A stretch of 64,000 bases of DNA from Methanothermobacter sp. (GTDB taxonomy: Archaea > Methanobacteriota > Methanobacteria > Methanobacteriales > Methanothermobacteraceae), in the NCBI RefSeq assembly GCF_030055435.1, contig NZ_JASFYG010000001.1, forward strand, positions 206,154-270,153, written 5' to 3'. The stretch's first letter is position 1; each line of letters opens with the position of its first letter. Below are positions 7,498 to 45,999 of this stretch, piece by piece. Below the pieces are notes generated by a model. That model saw only the letters and a program-made list of their open reading frames with translations. It was not told the DNA's origin and searched no databases. The position numbers and the translations under genes are program-made.

Positions 7498-8930
7498 ACC
7501 TCCAAGATGGGATTACAATGAGCCATGCCAGAACCCTCGCAAAAAATACCCTGTTTCTCCTCACAGCCACCATCTTCACCAACTTTGCGGCCTTTATCTG
7601 GAACGTCTACCTCGCAAGGTACCTTGGCAAGGAAGGTTTCGGTATACTCTCAGCGGCACTTGCCCTCACAGGCATATTCAGCATACTGGCTGACCTCGGG
7701 ATGGGGACCTACATTACAAGGGAGATTGCAAGGGACCCGGGTAGGGCCAGGGAACTTGCATCTGCTGGACTTGGTAACAGGCTGATCCTTTCACTAATTG
7801 TCCTGGTTATGATAATCCTCTTACCTGTAACAGGTATCTACAGGGGATCGGCTGCTGCGGTTATAATGTTCATAGGGGGTTACATGCTTGTTAACGCCTT
7901 CAGCTCATTCTTCAACAGCATGTTTCAGGGCTTCCAGCGGATGGAGTATCAGACAATCTGGAACATTCTCAACAGTTTCTTCATACTTATAGGGGTTCTC
8001 TCGGTAATCTGGCTGGGGGGTAGTGTTGTACATGTTGCCATCGCCTACCTCATTGCAGCGATTCTCTCTCTCACCTACTCAGTCTTAATATTCACAGGAC
8101 GCTTTTTCAAACCAGGCGTGGCTTTCAGCTGTGAACTGATAAGAAAAGGACTTCCATTTGGTATAACCAGTGTATTCTACCTGATCTACTTCTGGATAGA
8201 CTCTGTTATGCTCTCATTCATGAAGGGTGATGTATCCGTTGGTCTCTACAGTGCACCCTACAGGCTTCTCACAGTCATAAGCTCTCTCTATACAGTATAT
8301 CTGCTGGCAGTCTTCCCCATAATGTCCAGGTTCCATGTTGAGAGTTCCGATTCCCTCAGATTAACCTACAGGAAATCCTTAAAGTACCTGCTTATACTCG
8401 CGATACCCCTAATATCCATGGTTTTTACACTGGCAGGGCCCATAATAGAACTGATATTCTCATCAGAATACCTTGACTCTGTACCTGCATTACGGATTCT
8501 CATAACTGCAACCACATTCATGTTTGTAAACGGAATAACATCAAATCTTCTGGGTTCAGCCGATAGACAGGACACGGTTACACGTGTCACAGGTGCTGGG
8601 GCGCTCTTCAATGTAACCGTTAACCTGATACTAATCCCGCGCTTTGATTTTGTTGGGGCGAGTGCCGCTACCGTGATGACAGAATTTCTGATGATGATCC
8701 TCTTCCTTAAGGTGGTGAGGGAAATGGATTATGGTCCTTCAGTGGAAGATATCCTGATGGGCTGGAAACTTCTTCTTCCAGCCATTGCCTCTATCCTCAT
8801 TCTTTTAATTCCAGCACATATTATACTGAAGGCGGCCCTTGCCCTGCTGGTTTATGTGGCTGGAATCCTCCTCACAGGGGCCATTGACCATGTTGACAGG
8901 GCAATAATGAGGTCAATAATCAGGGGCTAA
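7494..8930 (+). CDS. Wzx-like polysaccharide flippase (MOP superfamily)
   Basis: This 478-residue protein has about 14 hydrophobic segments. The N-terminal NTLFLLTATIFTNFAAFIWN and ARYLGKEGFGILSAALAL patterns are typical of RfbX/Wzx O-antigen transporters. It would translocate lipid-linked oligosaccharides across the membrane. The ATG overlaps the epimerase stop as ATGA. A second ATG at 7518 has only a weak GGGAT upstream. It closes the plus-strand unit and converges with the UPF0104 gene, 30 bases downstream on the other strand. Two more flippases (19573, 52477) occur in the window. Confidence 0.88.
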   Translation: MNLQDGITMSHARTLAKNTLFLLTATIFTNFAAFIWNVYLARYLGKEGFGILSAALALTGIFSILADLGMGTYITREIARDPGRARELASAGLGNRLILSLIVLVMIILLPVTGIYRGSAAAVIMFIGGYMLVNAFSSFFNSMFQGFQRMEYQTIWNILNSFFILIGVLSVIWLGGSVVHVAIAYLIAAILSLTYSVLIFTGRFFKPGVAFSCELIRKGLPFGITSVFYLIYFWIDSVMLSFMKGDVSVGLYSAPYRLLTVISSLYTVYLLAVFPIMSRFHVESSDSLRLTYRKSLKYLLILAIPLISMVFTLAGPIIELIFSSEYLDSVPALRILITATTFMFVNGITSNLLGSADRQDTVTRVTGAGALFNVTVNLILIPRFDFVGASAATVMTEFLMMILFLKVVREMDYGPSVEDILMGWKLLLPAIASILILLIPAHIILKAALALLVYVAGILLTGAIDHVDRAIMRSIIRG

Positions 8931-27683: not shown

Positions 27684-27880
27684 GAGACCTTATCCGCTGA
27701 TATGCTGATTTTGATTCTTTAAAGCGTATAATGTGTGTAAAGGGCGCTGAATTTTATTTTACTGGAAAATCGTGGAAAAACGTTCAGAATCATATCAAAA
27801 TCTATAAATAAAATCAGAAAGAAAGATATATCCCTGCAGGATTCCTTCCTGCACCTGGAGGCGATAGTATATCCCGTGGT

Positions 27881-29485
27881 ATGCAACTCCTGTGCATGCT
27901 GTTGGCATGCATGGTGTTACTCAATACCGGAGAGATCTATGCCCAGAACACACAAGGTGAAGAAGCACTGCTTCCTGATAACATGACACCGAAGACCTGC
28001 AGTACAGTTATGGAGAAGAACTCCACAGTAGCAGAGATCAGGGGCAGCCTGGAGAATGCAAGTACTCCAGTAGCTGCAGCGGGTCCATCAGTCTCACGGA
28101 CCGATGTTGAGGACGCGGCAGTTCGTGTCAATGCATTCATTGCAAAGAACAGGCGTCTGCCCCTCACCGTGGAGGTGGGGGATGTGAAGGTGAACCTGGC
28201 ACAGTTCCTGCAGCTAGAATCACAGTATCTCCTCAACAGGACACCCAGATTGAACCAGGTACAGGTACCGTCAGAAACATCTGGAACCGTGCTCAAAGGC
28301 TCAATTTACCTGAAGGACTACCTTGAAGTTGCAGGTAGGGTGCTCCAGAGTGGAGGCGCACCTGGATACATCAGCTTCAGGGACCAGAGGATAGGATTCC
28401 AATCTCTTGTGTGGCTATTTGCAAGGGCAATTAATTTTAAAGTGACAAATCAACGCCTTCCAAATTATATCAGACTCGACACACTGAATTCAGTAAAGTC
28501 ATCCACCCCCGCCAGTAACAATTCCGGCAGCAGCGATGCTGCCAGTGGCAACTCAGGGTTCACAAGGGAACAGATACTTTCCGCGGCAAAATCACTGAAA
28601 ACATACATTGACCAGAAGCAGAGCCTACCCGGGTATGTGCAGGTGTCAAATCAGAGGCTTGGTATAGCCCAGTTCCTGCATCTAATGGTTAAATGCCTCA
28701 ACCAGATAAATCTGGGGAAGAATACCCCTATAACACCGGTTAAAGCCGGTGAGGCAGCAAACCCTGCAGGGGATGCTACAGGTACCATAAAAAGGGAGGA
28801 GTACCTGAAGATTGCATCCCTGGTTGAGGGGTTCATGGAAAGGAACCAGAGAGCCCCAAACTATGCAGGTTCAGGTAAAGGTAGAATCTCGTATGAGAGC
28901 CTTGTATACTCAATTTCAAGGATTCTGAGCTTCTACAGCGACAACAGAAGACTACCAAATGCTGTGACCGTGACGAAGCTGGCGTCCTCACTGAAAAATC
29001 GGCCAGAAAACGACCCCTACATGGGTGAAAGTACAGGGAAGTACCTTTCATCATCAGCCAACTGTCCTGTGGATAACGAGAGGATAAGGTCCCTTGCAGT
29101 AAGCATTACCAGTGGACTTACATCAAAATTTGCAAGGGCATCGGCCATCTTCTGCTGGGTTCGTGACCATATAGACTACAGCTTCTACTACAACACAAGG
29201 TACGGTGCCCTGGGGACACTTCAGAACAGGACAGCCAACTGTGTGGACCATTCACACCTCCTTGTGGCCCTTGCAAGGGCTGCTGGGATACCTGCAAGGT
29301 ACGTTCACGGGACCTGTAACTTCACATCAGGGAACACCTACGGTCATGTGTGGGCCCAGCTCCTTGTTGGCGATACATGGTACGCTGCAGATGCAACGAG
29401 CTCAAGAAACAGCCTTGGAATTGTAAACAACTGGAACACTTCCAGCGCAGTTATAAAGGGCATATACGCAAGTTTACCATTTTAA
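27881..29485 (+). CDS. Secreted PMBR/transglutaminase protein, pseudomurein endoisopeptidase-like
   Basis: This 534-residue protein has a signal peptide (LLCMLLACMVLLNTGEIYA), a short Ser/Thr-rich linker, then four or so pseudomurein-binding segments between about residues 65 and 365, recognisable by the RLP-x-Y-V/I and SLV/FL patterns. It ends in a transglutaminase-like domain with Cys454 (TANCVDHSHL), His489 (YGHVWAQL) and Asp504 (WYAADAT). The layout matches phage PeiP and PeiW, which cut the isopeptide bond in pseudomurein cross-links. No phage genes are nearby, so it is likely a cellular wall-remodelling enzyme. The ribosome site GGAGG points to ATA 27869, not ATG 27881. Confidence 0.85.
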   Translation: MQLLCMLLACMVLLNTGEIYAQNTQGEEALLPDNMTPKTCSTVMEKNSTVAEIRGSLENASTPVAAAGPSVSRTDVEDAAVRVNAFIAKNRRLPLTVEVGDVKVNLAQFLQLESQYLLNRTPRLNQVQVPSETSGTVLKGSIYLKDYLEVAGRVLQSGGAPGYISFRDQRIGFQSLVWLFARAINFKVTNQRLPNYIRLDTLNSVKSSTPASNNSGSSDAASGNSGFTREQILSAAKSLKTYIDQKQSLPGYVQVSNQRLGIAQFLHLMVKCLNQINLGKNTPITPVKAGEAANPAGDATGTIKREEYLKIASLVEGFMERNQRAPNYAGSGKGRISYESLVYSISRILSFYSDNRRLPNAVTVTKLASSLKNRPENDPYMGESTGKYLSSSANCPVDNERIRSLAVSITSGLTSKFARASAIFCWVRDHIDYSFYYNTRYGALGTLQNRTANCVDHSHLLVALARAAGIPARYVHGTCNFTSGNTYGHVWAQLLVGDTWYAADATSSRNSLGIVNNWNTSSAVIKGIYASLPF

Positions 29486-31285: not shown

Positions 31286-31600
31286 ACATCCACTTAAAGG
31301 TGTTCAGATCAATCCATGCGCTGACTGGAGGCGGCACACTGGCTTCCCGTAGGCTATGAGGATAATTCAATGGGGTTCATGGGTTCATGAACCGAAAAAT
31401 ATACCCTCTTTAGAGTTCTAAAGCTGAATCTGGACCTCTATATTTGTCCTTCATTTAATCATGTAGTGGTCAGGCCACACCCATGCATGGCACTGAAAAA
31501 AAGACATCATAGCGTTTATTTTGATTTGAAAGACTCTAATATTGTTTTTTTCATGATTTTAAACCACAATATTTATATATAATACATTTTTTAAGAGTGT
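31286..31600 (+). promoter_or_regulatory. 315-bp intergenic region with TATA box for the 31601 gene
   Basis: No gene is supported here. The right end has TTTATATA at 31572-31579, placed to start transcription almost exactly at ATG 31601, and an A-rich BRE before it. A 12-bp perfect palindrome, GGTTCATGAACC, lies at 31382-31393, with a half-site GGTTCAT repeated just upstream (31374-31380); it could be an operator. GTGGTCAGGCCAC near 31467-31479 is a smaller inverted repeat. Confidence 0.55.
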
Positions 31601-33784
31601 ATGTGGGGTTTCCAAAACCCCCATGGAGGCGGTAAAATTTCGGGAAAACTGAATCTACTAATAGCCCTAGTTATGGTGCTATCATTTCTGGGCTCAAATG
31701 TGGCAGGTGCCGTTGAGATATCAGATAACGAAACACTTAATGGGACAGAAACCAGTGATAACCAGACATTAACAGAGGGTGACAGCCAGACATCAGATGA
31801 TACAGATAACCAGACATCCGCCCAGACAGAGGAAACAGGCACACCCCATGGGGCCATCTGGGTTAAAGCCTACGATATGGGGAAGGTGAACCTCACAGAA
31901 CTCAAAAAGATGGGTATAAAGGATGTCTTCCTTGAGCAGCTGGCCTTCAATGACGCCAGGTTCAGCAGGAACCTCACCTCGTTCCTCGGCAATGCATCAG
32001 AGCAGGGGATAAGGGTGAGCGCCTGGGTGATCTGCCTCAAGGATGCCAGCGGAAAATGGGTTGACCCAACCGGAAGATACGCCTACAATGTTACAAAGAC
32101 ACAGAAGGTCACGGTAAAGGAGCCATACAAGTACTACTACACCGTGACAGTGAAGAAGGCCTACACCAGGTATGTGAAAGAGAGGTACAGGGTATGGTAC
32201 AGGGACGGCGGTAAACTAAGATACACCTGGAAGTACCGCTACGTTAAAAAGACATACTACAGGTACGTTAAGGAGACACGGTACACCATAAAGTACCGTA
32301 CAGTTACAAAAACCGTTAAGACCACCGAAACAGTGTACAGCTACAACCGGACCTACGCAGAGAACTTCATAGATAACCTGACAAAGCGCGCCCTCTCATA
32401 CATCAGTGTACCTGGCGTTGGCGGGGTGCACCTGGACTACATCCGATATCCAGGAAACGCCTACCAGGTCCCCAACTCCACAGAGACAATAACCGGAATA
32501 GTTAAGAGGATAAGTGAAGCCGTAAAATCAGTGAACCCCAACCTTCTCCTATCAGCGACTGTGATGCCAGAGAAGGCCTCAAACGCCTACTACTATGGAC
32601 AGGACTACACAAAACTTGCAGAGTACCTGGATGTACTGGTTCCCATGGCCTACAGGGGTAACTACAATACAGGAACATCATGGATAAAGAATGTAACGGC
32701 CTACATCAAGAGCAAGAGCCTCAATGCCCAGGTCTGGACCGGAATTCAGACCTACAGGTCAGATGATGATGTAACACCAGTACCTGCAGATGAACTCAGG
32801 GCCGATATAAACGCGGTTCTGAGTGGAGGTGCAGATGGGTACGCCCTCTTCAGGTACGGCCTGATAGACAGGGAATTTATGGGTGTAGCACTATCCACAA
32901 ACACAATGCCCTCCGCCGCCAATTCAGTAACCGCAGAGATGTTAAGGGATGCCGCCAGCAGGTTCAAGAGTTTTGTGGAGTCAAACTACAGGCTCCCCGG
33001 TTACGTGAATATAAATGGAGTTCAGGTCAAAAACTCTGAGTTCCTCTATCTGCTGGCAGGGTTTCTCACAGGCGCCGACCTGGAAATCAGGTCATTCAGT
33101 GAGGGATCAAACACAACCCTGGTGGCAGCAGGGACAATTCAGAGGGACGGCTACCTTAGAATTGCATCGGACGTCTGGAACTACATGTCAGCAAATGGCA
33201 GGGCTCCCTCAAGCATATCATCCAGTGCCGGGAGTCTGAGCTTCAATACACTGGTTTATCTGCTATCGAAGGTCGTTGCATTTGAGGGTGCAAACGGAAG
33301 GCTGCCAGACCATGTGACCATCGACAGTTCAATTTTCAGGGGAAAGTACCTTGCATCATCAGCCAACTGTCCCGTTTACAACCCGGAGATAAGGTCACTT
33401 GCAGCGAGCATAACAAAGGGTCTTTCATCGACACTGCAGAAGGCAACAGCCATATTCAACTGGGTGCGTGACCATATAGACTACAGCTTCTACTACAATA
33501 CAAGGTACGGTGCCACCGGCACGCTGAAAACCAGGACAGGTAACTGTGTGGACATAACACACCTCCTTGTGGCCCTCTCAAGGGCTGCGGGTATACAGGC
33601 AAGGTATGTCCATGCCAAGTGCACATTCCTCTCAGGTAACACCTACGGCCATGTCTGGGCCCAGTTATACGTGAACGGAAAGTGGGTAAACGCCGATGCA
33701 TCAAGCAAGATGAACTCCCTTGGAGTCATAAAGAACTGGAAGACTGCAACCATAAAGGGCTACTATGCGGGACTGCCATTCTAA
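31601..33784 (+). CDS. Secreted GHL10-like glycosidase / PMBR / transglutaminase fusion
   Basis: This 727-residue protein has a signal peptide (KLNLLIALVMVLSFLGSNVAG) and an acidic Thr/Asn-rich linker. It then has a TIM-barrel resembling GHL10/DUF187 glycosidases (VHLDYIRYPGNAY near residue 277, LLLSATVMP, VPMAYRG). A Tyr/Lys/Arg-rich insert occupies about residues 167-246. Two PMBR segments (about 447-585) precede a transglutaminase-like domain with Cys649, His684 and Asp699. Both the glycan and the peptide cross-link of pseudomurein could be targets. The start is leaderless ATG 31601, or ATT 31637, which has GGAGG seven bases upstream and begins the protein right at the signal peptide. Confidence 0.82.
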   Translation: MWGFQNPHGGGKISGKLNLLIALVMVLSFLGSNVAGAVEISDNETLNGTETSDNQTLTEGDSQTSDDTDNQTSAQTEETGTPHGAIWVKAYDMGKVNLTELKKMGIKDVFLEQLAFNDARFSRNLTSFLGNASEQGIRVSAWVICLKDASGKWVDPTGRYAYNVTKTQKVTVKEPYKYYYTVTVKKAYTRYVKERYRVWYRDGGKLRYTWKYRYVKKTYYRYVKETRYTIKYRTVTKTVKTTETVYSYNRTYAENFIDNLTKRALSYISVPGVGGVHLDYIRYPGNAYQVPNSTETITGIVKRISEAVKSVNPNLLLSATVMPEKASNAYYYGQDYTKLAEYLDVLVPMAYRGNYNTGTSWIKNVTAYIKSKSLNAQVWTGIQTYRSDDDVTPVPADELRADINAVLSGGADGYALFRYGLIDREFMGVALSTNTMPSAANSVTAEMLRDAASRFKSFVESNYRLPGYVNINGVQVKNSEFLYLLAGFLTGADLEIRSFSEGSNTTLVAAGTIQRDGYLRIASDVWNYMSANGRAPSSISSSAGSLSFNTLVYLLSKVVAFEGANGRLPDHVTIDSSIFRGKYLASSANCPVYNPEIRSLAASITKGLSSTLQKATAIFNWVRDHIDYSFYYNTRYGATGTLKTRTGNCVDITHLLVALSRAAGIQARYVHAKCTFLSGNTYGHVWAQLYVNGKWVNADASSKMNSLGVIKNWKTATIKGYYAGLPF

Positions 33785-33838: not shown

Positions 33839-35880
33839 TCAGTGATTTTCCCATTTCATGATGGTCTTTGTTTCCACCCGGTATATGGTCCTTGTTTTCC
33901 ATTGCCATTTAACCCTGTATTTCCATTCTCCGCCCTTCAGATACCAGTACCTATAATAGGATCTGTAGCGTATCTTACCCGCGGGAACTTTAACTGTGTA
34001 TCTGTACTCTCTGAGGGACCTTCTATGAATCACACTGGATGACGACATATAATCCTCTGTGCCATTGAATCGAACCTGGAATGTATAGTTGCCCGGCCCT
34101 GGCACGATGTATCTGATTAGAGCAACGCCATTTGAATCTGTTAAAGCTGATGCCACAGTACGATTATTCACCTCGAGGTGAACCATTCGCCTGGCGAGTT
34201 TCCAGTCCCCGCACTTAAGTTCCGCCCTTATCAGTATCTGCCTATTCTCTGCTGTTAATGTTGTCAGCAGTGCTGATGGGTTAGAGAATTTTGAAAGAAA
34301 CACATCCCATACACCAGTACCTGCTGTGCCAGTTGTATTGCCCCTGTAACCCGTTTTATTCTGCAGTGCATCTGCGGTCACAGGGAAGTCTGAAGATTGC
34401 GTTTCGCCGTAGACATAGAAACCCCCATTTGCAAGGGCCACCCCCCATCCATGGTCATCAGGTTTAACCGTCGCCGGAGCGCCTGGTCCAGTTATGGCAC
34501 TTCTTCCCCCAAGGTAAGAACTGTAAAGGAGTCTCTTACCTGATGGATCAATCTTTATTATGAAAACATCGTCTGAGCCAGCATTGGCCTTCTGGTATGC
34601 GTCCTCTGTCACAGGGAAATCCATTGAATTTGTCTGACCTGTCACGTATGCGCACCCATCACTGTCCACTGTAATGAACCAGGCTGCATCGAGTCCTGTT
34701 CCCCCTATGTATGAAGAGTAGATAAGACCTCCCGCAGGGTTAATCTTCATTACAAATCCATCATAGTTTGGAGTGCTTCCAGTGAAGCCTGTGCCCATGT
34801 AGAATGGGGAGAATGCATCCCGGGTTACTGGAAGGTTATCTGAACTTGTATAGCCAGTTATGTAGATATTACCATATTTATCGAGTTCCATCGCTCTTCC
34901 AGTATCATAACTGTCCCCTCCAAGGTATGTGCTGTAGATTAGAGCCGAACCATTACTGTTGAGCTTCACCAGGAAGGAATCCTGTGTTCCCCCCTGATAC
35001 GACTTTAACATTGCATCAGGTGTAACCGGAAAGTCCGTTGAAACCGTTTCCTCACCCAGAATGTAGGCATTACCGTCACTGTCCACCCTTATATCCTGGG
35101 CCTGTTCCGCCTGGCTACCCCCAAGGTATGTGCTGTAGATTAGACCCGAACCATTACTATTGAGCTTCACGACAAATGCGTCGAAACTATCCTGATACTT
35201 CTGCATGTTATCTCCACTGTAACCATCAGAAGTCTCCCATATGGGTCCCATCTTACGTGTCTGGAATGCCCCTGATGTTACTGGAAAATCAGGTGAATTT
35301 GTTGTCCCCGCAATGTAGGCACAGCCGTCTGAATCAACTGCTATACCCCATCCGCGATCCACTATTCTTCCCCCAAGGAATGTTGAGTAAACAAGACCAC
35401 CCGTGGAGTTAATTTTGAGTGCAAATGCGTCTGTTACACCACCATATGTCTCCATATATGCATTGGGTGTTGTGGGGAAATTTGATGACTGTGTCCAGCC
35501 AGTGACATAAACATTTCCGTTTCTGTCAACTGTGAGTGCGTTTGCAGTATCAGTACCACTACCACCGATTATGATGTTCCATATTACAGTACCATTGGGG
35601 TGCATCTTAACAACATATGCATCATTACCTCCACCAGGCCCATACCTTGCTGTGACAGCAGGAAAATCATTTGGTGGTGTATTGGCCGATTTTGTGTTAC
35701 CTGCGAAGTATATGTAGCCGAGTTTATCTGCATAAAAACCCCTCCCCTTTTCATGTTCACTGCCTGCAAAGTAGCTGCTGTATGACAGGAAGGGAGTATC
35801 TGGAGCTGATTTTATCGTAATTGTTGCATTACCTGATGACCCGTTATGATTACTGTCACCATCAAACCGGGCCATTGCAT
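33839..35880 (-). pseudogene. SBBP beta-propeller surface protein, 3' part of a frameshifted gene
   Basis: The 3' reading frame (open from 35875, 678 residues) holds seven SBBP repeats of the form YLGG-x-DxA-x-DSDGNAYxxGxTxSxDFPVT, enough for one seven-bladed propeller, then an Ig-like domain (about residues 535-615). The last 60 residues are rich in Tyr, Trp, Lys and Arg (WYLKGGEWKYRVKWQWKTRT) and resemble the insert of the 31601 protein. It has no start of its own: the first residues, ARFDGDSNHNGSSGNATITI, are the second half of an Ig-like domain whose first half is in the other frame at 35812-36501. One lost base near 35880 explains it, or a sequencing error. Confidence 0.8.
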
Positions 35881-40785: not shown

Positions 40786-43700
40786 TTAGATTACCACGTA
40801 GTGTGGTAATCTTCCGTTTGAACCGTAGAATCCGATTATCCTGCTGTACAGGTAGACGAGTCGTGAGTAGGGGACCCTTCCACGGGATGTCACAGCATAG
40901 TTGGGGGCCCTTCTATTCCTGGTTATGAAGTCCCTTATGTTTACAGCGTACCTCAGGTATGCGCTCATGTAGAGTTTACCTGGCATGTAGATACCCCTGG
41001 GTGCGGTGGGGTAGCCCACGGCTCTGGGTGTTACAGGCCTCTTACTGCCGGCACCAAGGTTGATGGCTGTCCTCACAAGGATGTCAAGGACCTCCGGTGG
41101 GGAGTAGTTCCTGCCTGCTATTCTAACGGTAACTGGCAGCCTCCTGTATTTGCCGTAGTACCATGTGATGTATCTTGTGGCTGAGATAACCTGGTCAGCG
41201 GTTATGCCGCTGGACGTTACCGTTACGGTGATGGGTGGGAGGGTGTCAACTGTGACCCTGTAGGTGCCTGCGCTGAGTGTCCTGGTATATGTTAATGTGG
41301 TTGATTCTCCGCCATTGAGGTTAACTGTCCTTGAGTCGACCTTCACGCCGTTTATCATGAGATCAGCTGTGTATGAACCTGCCAGGTCCCCTGTATTCGT
41401 GACCCTGACCGTCACGGTGATACCGAGTGGTGCGGGTCCTGATACCGGTGAAACCCTCAGGTTACTTAGCTGGAAGGTTGCCGGTTTGAGGACGGTTACA
41501 GCCACCGGAGTAAGACCATCAACCGTGACATTGTAGGTTCCCCTTGAGAGGACCCTGGTGAAGGTAACCCTGACGGTCTCACCGGCATTGACTGTCAGTG
41601 TCCTTTGAGAGACCACTGCACCATTGACCATGAGGCTGGCGGTGTAGTCACCTGCAACATCCCCGGTATTTGTGACATCCACGGCGACGTTAACATTCAG
41701 GGACTCAAGACCCGTCACAGGATCAACCTCGAGGTTATCCAGTACAAAGGTCGCCGGTTTGAGGACAGTAACAGCCAGGGGTGCAAGACCATCAACACCC
41801 ACCATGTACACGCCGGGGTCTGTGAGGTCCATGAGGAAGCTAACCTCAGGTGATGATGCAGGGTTAAGTGTGATATCCCTGAAGGCCACCACCACCCCAT
41901 CGACGGTGAGGTTAACCCTGCATACACCTGCAACCTCCCCGGTATTTGTGACATTCACCGTGACGTTTACCCTGAGGGGTGCCACACCGGTGGCGGGTGT
42001 AACGGTCAGGTTATCAAGGCTGAAGGTGGCTGGTTTAAGTACGTGGAGTGTGGATGTGTCCTCTGATGGGAGGTGGGTGTCATCACCCGGGAATTCTGCC
42101 CTGGTGGCGTATGTGCCAGGTGCCCCCGTAGTGATGGTGAACCTGGCTTTTCCTGTGTTATCTGTGAGGGCTGATCCCAGGAGTACGCCCTCAAGGTAGA
42201 ATCTGATCTCCCTTCCCTCAACTGGTCCTCCCTGTGATGTGAGTGTCGCAACGAGTTCGGCTATCTCCCCGGCCACTGCCTGCGCCCCCTGGAGGGTTGT
42301 GGTGGTGGGGTACTTCTCTGTGAGGGGCGCGAAGGTGCTGAAGGTGTTGATGTTGTCTGCGTAGACGTACCTCTCGGTGGTGTTCACCCCTGTCTCTGGA
42401 AGCTGGTTCCAGGTTCCTGAGTGGCGGAAGACCCGGAGGCCTGTCTCATTTTTACCTGCAACGTCACCTGGTGTGTAGTGGAACCTGAGGTAATCAAGGA
42501 TTGTTGCTCCTGCTGATGATATGTCCACATATTTTGTGATGTTAACCCATCCTGCAGGGTCTGCTGGTGGTGATTCAACTCCCCTCAGGATGATCCCGGC
42601 GGTGTACCTGAAGCTCAGTAGTGTGGGGTAGAGTAGGCCCACCCTGAGGCGTGTGAAGGTGTTTGATGTGTCTGGGTCAGCCTGGAGGTCAGGACCCGTG
42701 GTGCTGGTGATGGTGTTGTCGATGAATTCAGAGCCGGTTACGCCCTGGAGGTACATGCCTCTGCTGTTGGAGGTTAGTGTGTTGTTCTGGATTGTTAATT
42801 CAGGGCTATCAACCCCACGTAACCATAAACCCCAGTCCTTACTACCGGTCACAGTATTATCCCGTAGGGTTACAATTCCACGGACATCCACCAGGTAGAG
42901 CCCAACACCATTACTATCGGATATCGTCGTGTTTTTCACAGTCAGGTTACCGCTATCAGCAGCGGACATTGTCACATAGACACCATTACCAGTGGAACCA
43001 GTAACAGTCAGGTTATCAAGCACCACATTCCTCAGGGTGTTATAACCCTCCAAGAAGACACCATAACCCCTACTGTTAACCACATGGGAGTTGCGGATGG
43101 TCATACCATCAAGGAAACCACCCCAGCTCCAGCTAACCCTCCGGATACCATCACTACAATTCACAAACCAGGAATCATCCACAGTCACATTCCTCAAAGT
43201 GGAACCCTCAACCAGATAGAGACCCTGCTGACCACTACCAGTAACATTAACACCCACAAGAGTCACATTAGACGCCGTGCCACCAACACGCACACCCTGC
43301 AAGGTAGAGTTACCGATACTAAGACCCCTCAGGACGAGATCATCACAGTCAACAGCCACAACCCCATAATTAAACTGCCTCACACCATTACCAAACACCA
43401 GACCCTCAACAGTCACACCATCAGCATTCTGAAGCTCCAAACAATTACCACCATTATCACGGATAAGGAGAGCCTCAGGGTTCACCATGAAATCATTCAC
43501 ACCCCTTAGATACACACCATTACCATTATCCCATATAGTGTTGTTCTGGATTGTTAATTCAGGGCTATCAACCCCACGTAACCATAAACCCCAGTCCGTA
43601 CTGCTGGATACAGTGTTATCCCGTAGGGTTACAATTCCACGGACATCCACCAGGTAGAGCCCAACACCATTACTATCGGATATCGTCGTGTTTTTCACAG

Positions 43701-45999
43701 TCAGGTTACCGCTATCAGCAGCGGACATTGTCACATAGACACCATTACCAGTGGAACCAGTAACAGTCAGGTTATCAAGCACCACATTCCTCAGGGTGTT
43801 ATAACCCTCCAAGAAGACACCATAACCCCTACTGTTAACCACATGGGAGTTGCGGATGGTCATACCATCAAGGAAACCACCCCAGCTCCAGCTAACCCTC
43901 CGGATACCATCACTACAATTCACAAACCAGGAATCATCCACAGTCACATTCCTCAAAGTGGAACCCTCAACCAGATAGAGACCCTGCTGACCACTACCAG
44001 TAACATTAACACCCACAAGAGTCACATTAGACGCCGTGCCACCAACACGCACACCCTGCAAGGTAGAGTTACCGATACTAAGACCCCTCAGGACGAGATC
44101 ATCACAGTCAACAGCCACAACACCATAATTAAACTGCCTCACACCATTACCAAACACCAGACCCTCAACAGTCACACCATCAGCATTCTGAAGCTCCAAA
44201 CAATTACCACCATTATCCTTTATAACACTCTCAGAACCATTGATGGTAATATTATTGATGTTTCGCAGGTAGATACCGCCAGCAGAGTTATTGTAGGCAT
44301 TGTTTCTCTGGAAGGTTAATTTGGGATTATTCTGGCCTGTTAACCATATTCCCCAGTTAGTATTGTTACTGAATGTGCTGTTTTCAAGGGTGTTGTTTCC
44401 TCTGAGCTCTGCGTATAATCCGCTTCCCCGATTGTTGGTTGAAGTGACATTAACTATTGTGGCATTTTCACTGTTTGTCTCCATGGTTATCCTTAAACCA
44501 TCCTGTGAGCAGTCCCTGATAGTGGTATTATTCACAACCACATTACGCACAAAATAACCATAATAACTCCGAGCATGCAATAAGACCCCATGACCAGTCG
44601 CATTGACCACAGTAACATTCTCAAGCCTCAAAACATCCACACTTGAACTGTAATCCTTCTCAATACCACTGGCACCGGTGGAGTCAAAAACAGAATCACG
44701 CACAACCAGACCAGAAACACTGGCACCAGCATCAACCATCAGACCCTGCTGGGAAGTCCTGTTCACAGTGACACCGGAAACAGTCACATTAGATGATGCC
44801 CCGCGAATAAGCACACCACGCTGAATACCAAACCCTGTAGCAACCCGGGCAGCCGCATCATCAAAGACCGCATCACGAACAGTCACAAAAGACACGCCCT
44901 CAAAAACCACAGGATAACCCGCATTATCAGTCAACTGAGAACCGCTCAGAATCACAGGAGCAGACTCACCACCAACACGCCTCAGGTAAACACCATTACG
45001 ATTACCCACAAAACGGTTACCCCCAGAAAGGACAAACCCAGCAACATTATCACCAACAACCCTCAAACCATAATAACCATCAACACCCCCACCAAAACCA
45101 TTACCAGAAAACACATTATCATCCAATAAAAGGAGACCCCTACTCTCAAAATACGCACCATGCTGCCTGTTACCACTAAAAGTACTGTTACCCACCGTAA
45201 CATTCTCACTATTAGGCTCCATAACCACCCTTAAACCATCCTGTGAGCAGTCCCTGATAGTGGTATTATTCACAACCACATTACGCACAAAATAACCATA
45301 ATAATTGTAAGCCTGCAGGAAAACCCCATGACCGGTCGCATTGACCACAGTAACATTCTCAAGCCTCAAACCATCCAGTGTGGAAGCGTAATATTTCTCA
45401 ATAGCACTGGCACCGGTGGAGTCAAAGACAGAATCACGCACAACCAGACCGGAAACACGGGAAGAAGAATAGAGCAGCAATCCCTGATTGTATGTCCTGT
45501 TCACAGTGACACCGGAAAGAGTCACATTGGAGGAAACGCCATTAATAACAACACCAAGGCTGGGGCCGGTTATGTTAAGGTCCCTGAGGGTAACATTCCC
45601 TGCCCCATCCACGGATACACCCGCAGCGGCTGTTGCGCCGACGAGTCTGAATCCCTGGATGGTGGCTCCTGAACCCGTGGATTGAACCCTGAAGACCGGG
45701 CTTGAGGGATTAAGTGATCCGTTAACGGTTACAAGACCCGCACTCCTTATGGTGAGGTTGGTCTTGTTTACAGTGACGCTCTCATGGTATGTGTAGGGGT
45801 TCCCGCCATCGTCGTGGACGGTTATTGTATCTCCACTGACGGTGGACCCATTATCAATTGCAGCCTGAATCGATGTGAAGTTGTAGCCTCCGCCTGGACC
45901 TACAGTCCATTCAGCGGCAGATGAAGATGAAATGGAAACTAAAACAACGAATAACACCAGCAAAAATACCTTAATTGACGGAAACGACTTTGAAATCAC
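40786..45999 (-). CDS. Giant surface protein: parallel beta-helix, Ig/CARDB-like domains and PMBR wall anchor
   Basis: This 1737-residue protein has a signal peptide (VFLLVLFVVLVSISSSSAA), then a long right-handed beta-helix region (about 30-1200) made of NVTLxGVTVNxTxxQGL-type coils. An Ig-like domain (TTTTLQGAQAVAGEIAELVA) follows, then three CARDB-like domains each starting KPATFxLxNLxVxP at about 90-residue intervals, and at the C-terminus two or three PMBR (RRLPVTVRIAGRNY, RRAPNYAVTSRGRVPYSRLV, GRLPHYVVI). It is exported and held to pseudomurein by its C-terminus. The helix contains a 253-residue duplication with almost identical DNA. GTG 45999 has GGGGGAG upstream. Confidence 0.85.
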   Translation of the reverse strand: MISKSFPSIKVFLLVLFVVLVSISSSSAAEWTVGPGGGYNFTSIQAAIDNGSTVSGDTITVHDDGGNPYTYHESVTVNKTNLTIRSAGLVTVNGSLNPSSPVFRVQSTGSGATIQGFRLVGATAAAGVSVDGAGNVTLRDLNITGPSLGVVINGVSSNVTLSGVTVNRTYNQGLLLYSSSRVSGLVVRDSVFDSTGASAIEKYYASTLDGLRLENVTVVNATGHGVFLQAYNYYGYFVRNVVVNNTTIRDCSQDGLRVVMEPNSENVTVGNSTFSGNRQHGAYFESRGLLLLDDNVFSGNGFGGGVDGYYGLRVVGDNVAGFVLSGGNRFVGNRNGVYLRRVGGESAPVILSGSQLTDNAGYPVVFEGVSFVTVRDAVFDDAAARVATGFGIQRGVLIRGASSNVTVSGVTVNRTSQQGLMVDAGASVSGLVVRDSVFDSTGASGIEKDYSSSVDVLRLENVTVVNATGHGVLLHARSYYGYFVRNVVVNNTTIRDCSQDGLRITMETNSENATIVNVTSTNNRGSGLYAELRGNNTLENSTFSNNTNWGIWLTGQNNPKLTFQRNNAYNNSAGGIYLRNINNITINGSESVIKDNGGNCLELQNADGVTVEGLVFGNGVRQFNYGVVAVDCDDLVLRGLSIGNSTLQGVRVGGTASNVTLVGVNVTGSGQQGLYLVEGSTLRNVTVDDSWFVNCSDGIRRVSWSWGGFLDGMTIRNSHVVNSRGYGVFLEGYNTLRNVVLDNLTVTGSTGNGVYVTMSAADSGNLTVKNTTISDSNGVGLYLVDVRGIVTLRDNTVSSSTDWGLWLRGVDSPELTIQNNTIWDNGNGVYLRGVNDFMVNPEALLIRDNGGNCLELQNADGVTVEGLVFGNGVRQFNYGVVAVDCDDLVLRGLSIGNSTLQGVRVGGTASNVTLVGVNVTGSGQQGLYLVEGSTLRNVTVDDSWFVNCSDGIRRVSWSWGGFLDGMTIRNSHVVNSRGYGVFLEGYNTLRNVVLDNLTVTGSTGNGVYVTMSAADSGNLTVKNTTISDSNGVGLYLVDVRGIVTLRDNTVTGSKDWGLWLRGVDSPELTIQNNTLTSNSRGMYLQGVTGSEFIDNTITSTTGPDLQADPDTSNTFTRLRVGLLYPTLLSFRYTAGIILRGVESPPADPAGWVNITKYVDISSAGATILDYLRFHYTPGDVAGKNETGLRVFRHSGTWNQLPETGVNTTERYVYADNINTFSTFAPLTEKYPTTTTLQGAQAVAGEIAELVATLTSQGGPVEGREIRFYLEGVLLGSALTDNTGKARFTITTGAPGTYATRAEFPGDDTHLPSEDTSTLHVLKPATFSLDNLTVTPATGVAPLRVNVTVNVTNTGEVAGVCRVNLTVDGVVVAFRDITLNPASSPEVSFLMDLTDPGVYMVGVDGLAPLAVTVLKPATFVLDNLEVDPVTGLESLNVNVAVDVTNTGDVAGDYTASLMVNGAVVSQRTLTVNAGETVRVTFTRVLSRGTYNVTVDGLTPVAVTVLKPATFQLSNLRVSPVSGPAPLGITVTVRVTNTGDLAGSYTADLMINGVKVDSRTVNLNGGESTTLTYTRTLSAGTYRVTVDTLPPITVTVTSSGITADQVISATRYITWYYGKYRRLPVTVRIAGRNYSPPEVLDILVRTAINLGAGSKRPVTPRAVGYPTAPRGIYMPGKLYMSAYLRYAVNIRDFITRNRRAPNYAVTSRGRVPYSRLVYLYSRIIGFYGSNGRLPHYVVI
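42779..44217. repeat. 759-bp tandem duplication inside the beta-helix gene
   Basis: Copy A 42779-43458 and copy B 43538-44217 are offset by 759 bp, exactly 253 codons. From 42852 to 43458 the copies differ by a single base; near 42837-42851 there are several mismatches. A second, shorter internal repeat pairs 44491-44585 with 45229-45323 (offset 738 bp, 246 codons). Both keep the reading frame and lengthen the beta-helix by whole turns. Confidence 0.95.

Follow-up and report, generated by a model that had tools for sequence, protein, structure and literature searches.

The window (the whole 64,000-nucleotide stretch of Methanothermobacter sp. DNA analysed here) carries on its forward strand an open reading frame (ORF) of 727 codons, 31601–33784, open throughout, which encodes a signal peptide followed by a (beta/alpha)8 barrel, three pseudomurein-binding repeats (PMBRs) and a C71/transglutaminase domain. 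Pfam matched PMBR (PF09373) in three stretches (E 1e-24), Transglut_core at residues 598–700 (E 1e-24, 87 bits), Peptidase_C71 at 610–725 (23.0 bits against a cut-off of 22) and DUF4015 (PF13200), a ‘putative glycosyl hydrolase’ family, at 270–366 (30.3 bits against 27); an NCBIfam search of the protein gave no match. The original prediction of a barrel with LDYIRYP (residues 278–284), PMBRs and a Cys-His-Asp set in one chain is borne out, with Pfam, model and residue conservation all in agreement.

Table 1 Features of the barrel–PMBR–transglutaminase gene and its surroundings (window positions).
Feature	Position	Strand	Basis
TATA-box-like TTTATATATA	31572..31581	+	Sequence; promoter function inferred
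Stem-loop of the GTGGGGTTT..AAACCCC type, immediately 5' of the Shine-Dalgarno	31601..31624	+	RNAfold
Shine-Dalgarno GGAGGCGGT	31625..31633	+	Sequence, orthologues
Probable true start ATT (AUU)	31637..31639	+	Orthologues, codon census, order-wide element
Signal peptide (I/M)SGKLNLLIALVMVLSFLGSNVAGA	31637..31711	+	Sequence, hydrophobic core scan
(beta/alpha)8 barrel, DUF4015/GHL10/GH18-like	31847..32881 (residues ~83–427)	+	Pfam, AlphaFold2 (pLDDT 87), Foldseek
Tyr/Lys/Arg-rich insertion, beta3-alpha3 loop	32084..32341 (residues 162–247)	+	Model and composition
Asp279, candidate catalytic acid, end of beta4 (LDYIRYP)	32435..32437	+	Conservation, alignment to 5oq2
Second candidate acid, Glu324 in MPE, following beta5	32570..32572	+	Conservation
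Pseudomurein-binding repeat region (three PMBRs)	32921..33340	+	Pfam PF09373, own HMM
C71/transglutaminase-type peptidase domain	33392..33781	+	Pfam, triad, PeiP as top Foldseek match
Peptidase triad Cys649, His684, Asp699	33545, 33650, 33695	+	Invariance in relatives
PMBR–transglutaminase paralogue without barrel, two genes upstream	27881..29485; probable start ATA 27869–27871 behind GGAGGCGAT	+	

This is the sole barrel gene in its genome (1.67 Mb, 10 contigs), which holds four further paralogues of the PMBR/transglutaminase or transglutaminase-only type. A Na/H exchanger gene lies between the upstream paralogue and the barrel gene, and four genomes of the genus (G145, G147, G148 and G149) share this trio, a synteny that ruled out the barrel gene being a provirus remnant. 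Elsewhere in the window, 40786–45999 on the minus strand encodes a beta-helix surface protein of 1737 residues with two PMBRs at its C terminus.

Residues 440–727 were modelled with a pLDDT of 75 and gave PeiP (8z4f) as the top fold match in the PDB; PeiP and PeiW were also matched by profile with the peptidase half (E 2e-10 and 1e-6). The three triad residues are invariant in the paralogues and in a PMBR protein of virus Drs3. Having this triad and a score above the family cut-off, the domain belongs to C71, and cleavage of the Ala-epsilon-Lys isopeptide bond is its predicted activity. Three PMBRs were the minimum for binding in MTH719 (PMC3124540), a minimum that the window protein reaches with its three stretches, and it is predicted to bind the wall. 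In another gene of the family (L090, 2939–6322, minus strand; orthologue in G150), the PMBR block occurs four times in tandem with a period of about 161 residues, in nearly identical copies.

Exported transglutaminases have been named the best candidates for pseudomurein cross-linking (PMC11915815), and the Transglut_core score of the domain exceeds its C71 score (87 against 23 bits). Both points would suit an enzyme of wall assembly rather than breakdown, in which the transglutaminase domain cross-links peptides and the barrel, as the wall matures, trims or transfers glycan. We consider this unlikely: the closest solved fold, PeiP, is a hydrolase; related transglutaminase domains are found in tail modules of viruses and in one viral PMBR protein, settings in which a cutting function is expected; and the same barrel is joined in viral contigs to unrelated C39-like peptidases. 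Cutting is favoured over cross-linking by PeiP as top fold match, by the PeiP and PeiW profile matches and by the related domains in viral tail modules. The latter are peptidase domains of transglutaminase type, seen on two viral contigs (L172, 3467–4348; L173, 3458–4348) at the C-terminal end of proteins from the tail module, which are probably tail-associated wall cutters.

The barrel was modelled by AlphaFold2, together with eight relatives from viral contigs, at a pLDDT of 87 and a pTM of 0.73, with eight strands in order. Foldseek with this model returned Cwp19 and then the C-terminal domain of PgaB as best solved structures, followed by GH5 and GH18 enzymes, and a profile of 26 barrel relatives matched GH18 chitinases, the DUF4015-like structure 4s1a, the spore-cortex enzyme YaaH and Cwp19. 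The prior description of the barrel as GHL10/DUF187-style holds for the Cwp19-like fold and for the DUF4015 score (23 of the 26 relatives pass that cut-off) but not for the Pfam score of GHL10 itself: at the GHL10 (PF02638) cut-off the window protein was not listed, and the best relative (L093) reached 27.3 against 27.9 bits. Structurally, the model has what GHL10 enzymes have, a TIM barrel with an Asp at the end of beta4 (Asp196 in Cwp19). GH18 is a poorer fit, as GGVHLDYIRYP is without the Glu of DxxDxDxE and the score was 27.6 against a cut-off of 29.6 bits. DigH is, like Cwp19, a member of the GHL10 group. Cwp19 acts on the wall as a lytic transglycosylase (PMC6016235), and denuded wall glycan is cut by the glycosyl hydrolase DigH (PMC12288456); by analogy, the barrel may be comparable in action to a GHL10 wall enzyme, though it falls short of the GHL10 cut-off and the GH18 cut-off and motif.

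Asp279, the counterpart of Cwp19 Asp196 in the alignment to 5oq2, is kept in 73 of 73 barrels, as are Gln334 and Asp344; Glu324, Tyr280 and Arg282 are each kept in 71, both exceptions being the same two proteins every time (L096 and L098). In the model, strands 1, 3, 4, 5, 6, 7 and 8 carry the invariant residues at their C-terminal ends or immediately beyond, on what is the catalytic face of such barrels. Structure prediction, the check proposed beforehand, thus placed candidate catalytic acids on the modelled barrel, with Asp279 and Glu324 both conserved and predicted on that face. The authors of the Cwp19 structure favour Asp196 as catalytic without settling on a second residue (PMC5765458); at the position of Cwp19 Arg132, the barrels studied here have Lys or Tyr.

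Missing the GH18 catalytic Glu of DxxDxDxE, and having two degenerate-looking members, the family might instead be a module for glycan binding or adhesion, devoid of catalysis. The two members (L096, 4385–6562; L098, 4453–6723; both minus strand) have a degenerate barrel site, yet intact PMBRs and peptidase triad, and from their sequences they look like natural dead paralogues. Together they have lost six sites (Tyr280, Arg282, Glu324, Met349, Tyr351 and Phe417), which shows that function ties these sites to one another in the other 71 barrels. The pair is therefore the exception that reveals the constraint, and Asp279, Arg282, Glu324, Gln334, Asp344 and Tyr351 are kept elsewhere; we regard a dead barrel as quite improbable.

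Residues 162–247 are not part of the barrel proper but an 86-residue insertion with a high content of Tyr, Thr, Lys, Val and Arg (24 Lys/Arg against 5 Asp/Glu; 20 aromatic residues). AlphaFold2 drew it as one beta-hairpin with strands of ~43 residues (pLDDT ~88), projecting after strand 3 beside the active site; this shape is a prediction, as AlphaFold may over-extend alternating sequences of this kind. Five genomes of the genus have the insertion, as do six other sampled genera (G008, G138–G143); it is absent from G150 (same genus, cleanly), from most other relatives and from the viral contigs. A paralogue (L004/L162) has a similar cassette in place of PMBRs, between signal peptide and peptidase, and the hairpin may represent a second kind of wall-binding part. 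Next to the barrel gene, 33839–35875 on the minus strand encodes an SBBP beta-propeller protein that ends, at the C terminus, in a comparable cassette rich in Tyr and Arg (YRYTVKVPAGKIRYRSYYRYWYLKGGEWKYRVKWQWKTRTIYRVETKT).

In the pseudomurein-making class, the barrel profile matched 134 of 152 genomes (E <= 1e-8), against 4 of 145 other archaeal genomes (E <= 1e-5, best 4.5e-23), and PMBR matched 141 of the 152 and none of the 145; the barrel family therefore tracks pseudomurein makers almost as tightly as PMBR does. It was not found in two genomes of the same genus (G144 and G146), which shows it to be dispensable. Had the fusion been unique, as the original prediction implied, it would not recur across the class as it does: the same three-part order was found in 34 of 66 sampled genomic barrels, a non-random sample of mostly top-scoring matches over many genera that does not give a frequency. 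A further 11 had PMBRs without a transglutaminase domain and 21 had neither; here only HMM matches above 100 bits were counted as transglutaminase domains, as those of 16–38 bits inside barrels are false. Some barrels stand alone or are paired with Ig-like domains. The barrel–PMBR–transglutaminase order was also present in Methanobrevibacter-like genomes and in a Methanothermus-like genome, and since the latter belongs to another family the fusion appears to be old. A scan of the genome contigs with the single protein gave as its sole match a distant Bacillota transglutaminase protein, and tblastn with the barrel against phage and plasmid sequences returned no phage match and one haloarchaeal family-10 glycosylhydrolase.

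Among viral sequences, eight IMG/VR contigs carry a barrel gene. In one (L062, 3708–4712) a PMBR–barrel gene sits between the portal and head maturation protease genes, with terminase upstream; in two others (L056 and L061) a barrel–PMBR protein with a C39-like C terminus adjoins the integrase, the usual place of a lysin. Viral-contig proteins L051, L052 and L055 have the barrel at the N terminus plus PMBR and C39-like parts. The C39-like Pfam match is weak, with E 0.002–0.04 in close relatives of the L056 and L061 proteins, below the cut-off; PeiR, a proven lysin, combines PMBR and C39 without a barrel (PMC6189367). That one barrel family is paired with PMBRs and with two wall peptidases unrelated to each other, both in hosts and in viruses, is the best indirect evidence for its acting on the same wall.

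A different glycan, such as the bacterial peptidoglycan of competitors, an S-layer or an extracellular polysaccharide, might be the target, as fold relatives act on peptidoglycan or poly-GlcNAc and some archaea secrete peptidoglycan hydrolases (PMC12352652). The same study lists few peptidoglycan hydrolase homologues in the Methanobacteria class (PMC12352652), and the barrel is fused to PMBRs, nearly confined to pseudomurein makers and found on contigs of their viruses, with one copy inside a head-gene cluster, all of which makes another substrate improbable.

The best-supported reading of the barrel is a putative pseudomurein glycan hydrolase, to which we give slightly better than even chances, and we lean with similar caution towards the protein as a whole being a two-headed pseudomurein hydrolase: a secreted, wall-bound, autolysin-like remodelling enzyme of predicted activity. 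After export, the PMBRs would anchor the enzyme on pseudomurein. The C71/transglutaminase domain (Cys649-His684-Asp699) would hydrolyse peptide cross-bridges, as PeiP and PeiW do, while the barrel, using Asp279 with Glu324 or another conserved residue, would cut the N-acetylglucosamine/N-acetyltalosaminuronic acid backbone, by analogy with its fold relatives DigH and Cwp19, which cleave the wall glycan of bacteria. Extra contact with the wall is probably provided by the long hairpin, basic and aromatic, that lies next to the active site. The idea that one enzyme cuts both glycan and peptide thus gains from the acid set, the Cwp19/PgaB fold, the PeiP-like half, the tracking of pseudomurein makers and the viral context; we infer the substrate, the bond cut and the type of reaction (hydrolase or lytic transglycosylase), and glycan activity itself is a prediction.

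The gene model of the ORF is probably wrong at its 5' end: judged from sequence comparison, translation starts not at the annotated ATG 31601 but at the AUU at 31637, behind a strong Shine-Dalgarno. Orthologues have GGAGGCGGT-AAA-ATT at the same place, or, at the start position, ATG (L096, L098 and L102) or GTG (others), and Methanobrevibacter-like genomes mostly use TTG as the start of the same genes. In five orthologues (L087, L090, L095, L099 and L100), the stretch ahead of the signal peptide lacked any in-frame ATG, GTG or TTG. In a codon census of 43 signal-peptide ORFs with GGAGG and no canonical start 4–13 nt on, which was not keyed to ATT and whose loci are biased towards the barrel/transglutaminase family, ATT was found in 30 and ATA in 7 (5–9 nt). 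The motif GGAGGCGGTAWAATT, searched in 151 genomes, occurred at 69 places among the matches listed, in 25 genomes and 11 genera, against 1 for the reversed pattern. Checked places (L154–L202) opened a signal-peptide ORF exactly at the ATT in 33 cases out of 34, and 19 of them had no canonical start upstream; the proteins behind the element are secreted and transglutaminase-like, PMBR-containing or Lys/Tyr-rich. The annotated starts of these order-wide genes are probably wrong too. In one contig (L103), small secreted genes of near-identical sequence follow one another, each having the ATT-start element (IKRHSIFALLFALG...), at sites 402, 1875 and 3247, and also at 8679.

Translation could instead begin at ATG 31601, for example leaderless, with GGAGGCGGTAAAATT serving as a DNA or RNA regulatory element; this ATG is in frame, lies about 25 nt past the TATA box centre and recurs in a close orthologue (L086). 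That it does so in the ORF at hand is, in our judgement, highly doubtful, given the five orthologues without an upstream in-frame start, the frame that is not kept upstream of the Shine-Dalgarno (spacing varies by 1–2 nt between orthologues), the ATG or GTG that orthologues have at the ATT position and the 33 of 34 motif copies that open a signal peptide at ATT. ATG 31601 also falls within the 5' arm of a stem-loop (RNAfold, 31601–31640, −10.9 kcal/mol). Similar stem-loops of differing sequence end just before the Shine-Dalgarno at other loci (L079, L086–L090, L003, L151, L158 and L171), and stem-loops precede the AUU start in Methanothermobacter-group and Methanothermus-like genes, not in Methanobacterium-like ones. 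As a general feature of AUU genes the stem-loop was ruled out, being clear in those two groups only (overall mean z −1.3). Starting, as it probably does, from AUU behind a strong Shine-Dalgarno, translation may be a means of holding a potentially lytic enzyme at a low amount.

To our knowledge, all known pseudomurein lysins cut peptides, and we found no enzyme cutting the pseudomurein sugar backbone in the literature searched. Nor did that literature yield a report of an archaeal AUU start; a review of archaeal initiation gives AUG, GUG and UUG only, with AUU unmentioned (PMC7531240). We put at a little under even the chance of the broader proposal, that Methanobacteria and their viruses have a class-wide glycosidase family cutting the pseudomurein backbone, together with a conserved AUU start and strong Shine-Dalgarno on secreted transglutaminase-like wall proteins. 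If true, the barrel family would be the first to cleave pseudomurein glycan, opening up the growth, division and viral lysis of pseudomurein archaea and adding a tool to break methanogen cells. The AUU would act to throttle translation of wall-cutting enzymes and, as a start codon conserved in an archaeal gene group, would be the first other than AUG, GUG and UUG; if it is real, archaeal initiation takes a codon absent from reviews, and the annotation of many secreted wall proteins in the order is in error, with a wrong N terminus and the signal peptide lost.

Among known systems, PeiP and PeiW share with the window protein the order of PMBRs followed by a Cys-His-Asp peptidase of transglutaminase fold, but they are viral, with four PMBRs and no barrel, whereas the window protein is chromosomal and has a signal peptide for secretion, three PMBRs and an N-terminal barrel with hairpin. 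The GHL10 wall enzymes Cwp19 (Clostridioides difficile) and DigH (Escherichia coli) have in common with the window barrel the TIM barrel and the Asp at the end of beta4; the window barrel differs in scoring below the GHL10 cut-off, in its DY(I/L)RYPG and MPE motifs, in its pseudomurein-binding repeats and in the wall polymer concerned. It does pass the score of DUF4015, a family without assigned function, within which the Methanobacteria barrels form a tight, separate branch that does not reach most other archaeal DUF4015 proteins. In Methanobrevibacter smithii, one adhesin-like protein has been listed with a putative glycosyl hydrolase domain, with no function given (PMC11532034). The C-terminal domain of PgaB, a poly-GlcNAc hydrolase and the second-best fold match, has a beta7 catalytic Glu that is not kept in the window barrel, and its substrate differs. 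Finally, PeiR (Methanobrevibacter ruminantium provirus, C39 plus PMBR) has the composition of the non-barrel part of the viral-contig proteins L051, L052 and L055, which differ from it in having an extra N-terminal barrel.
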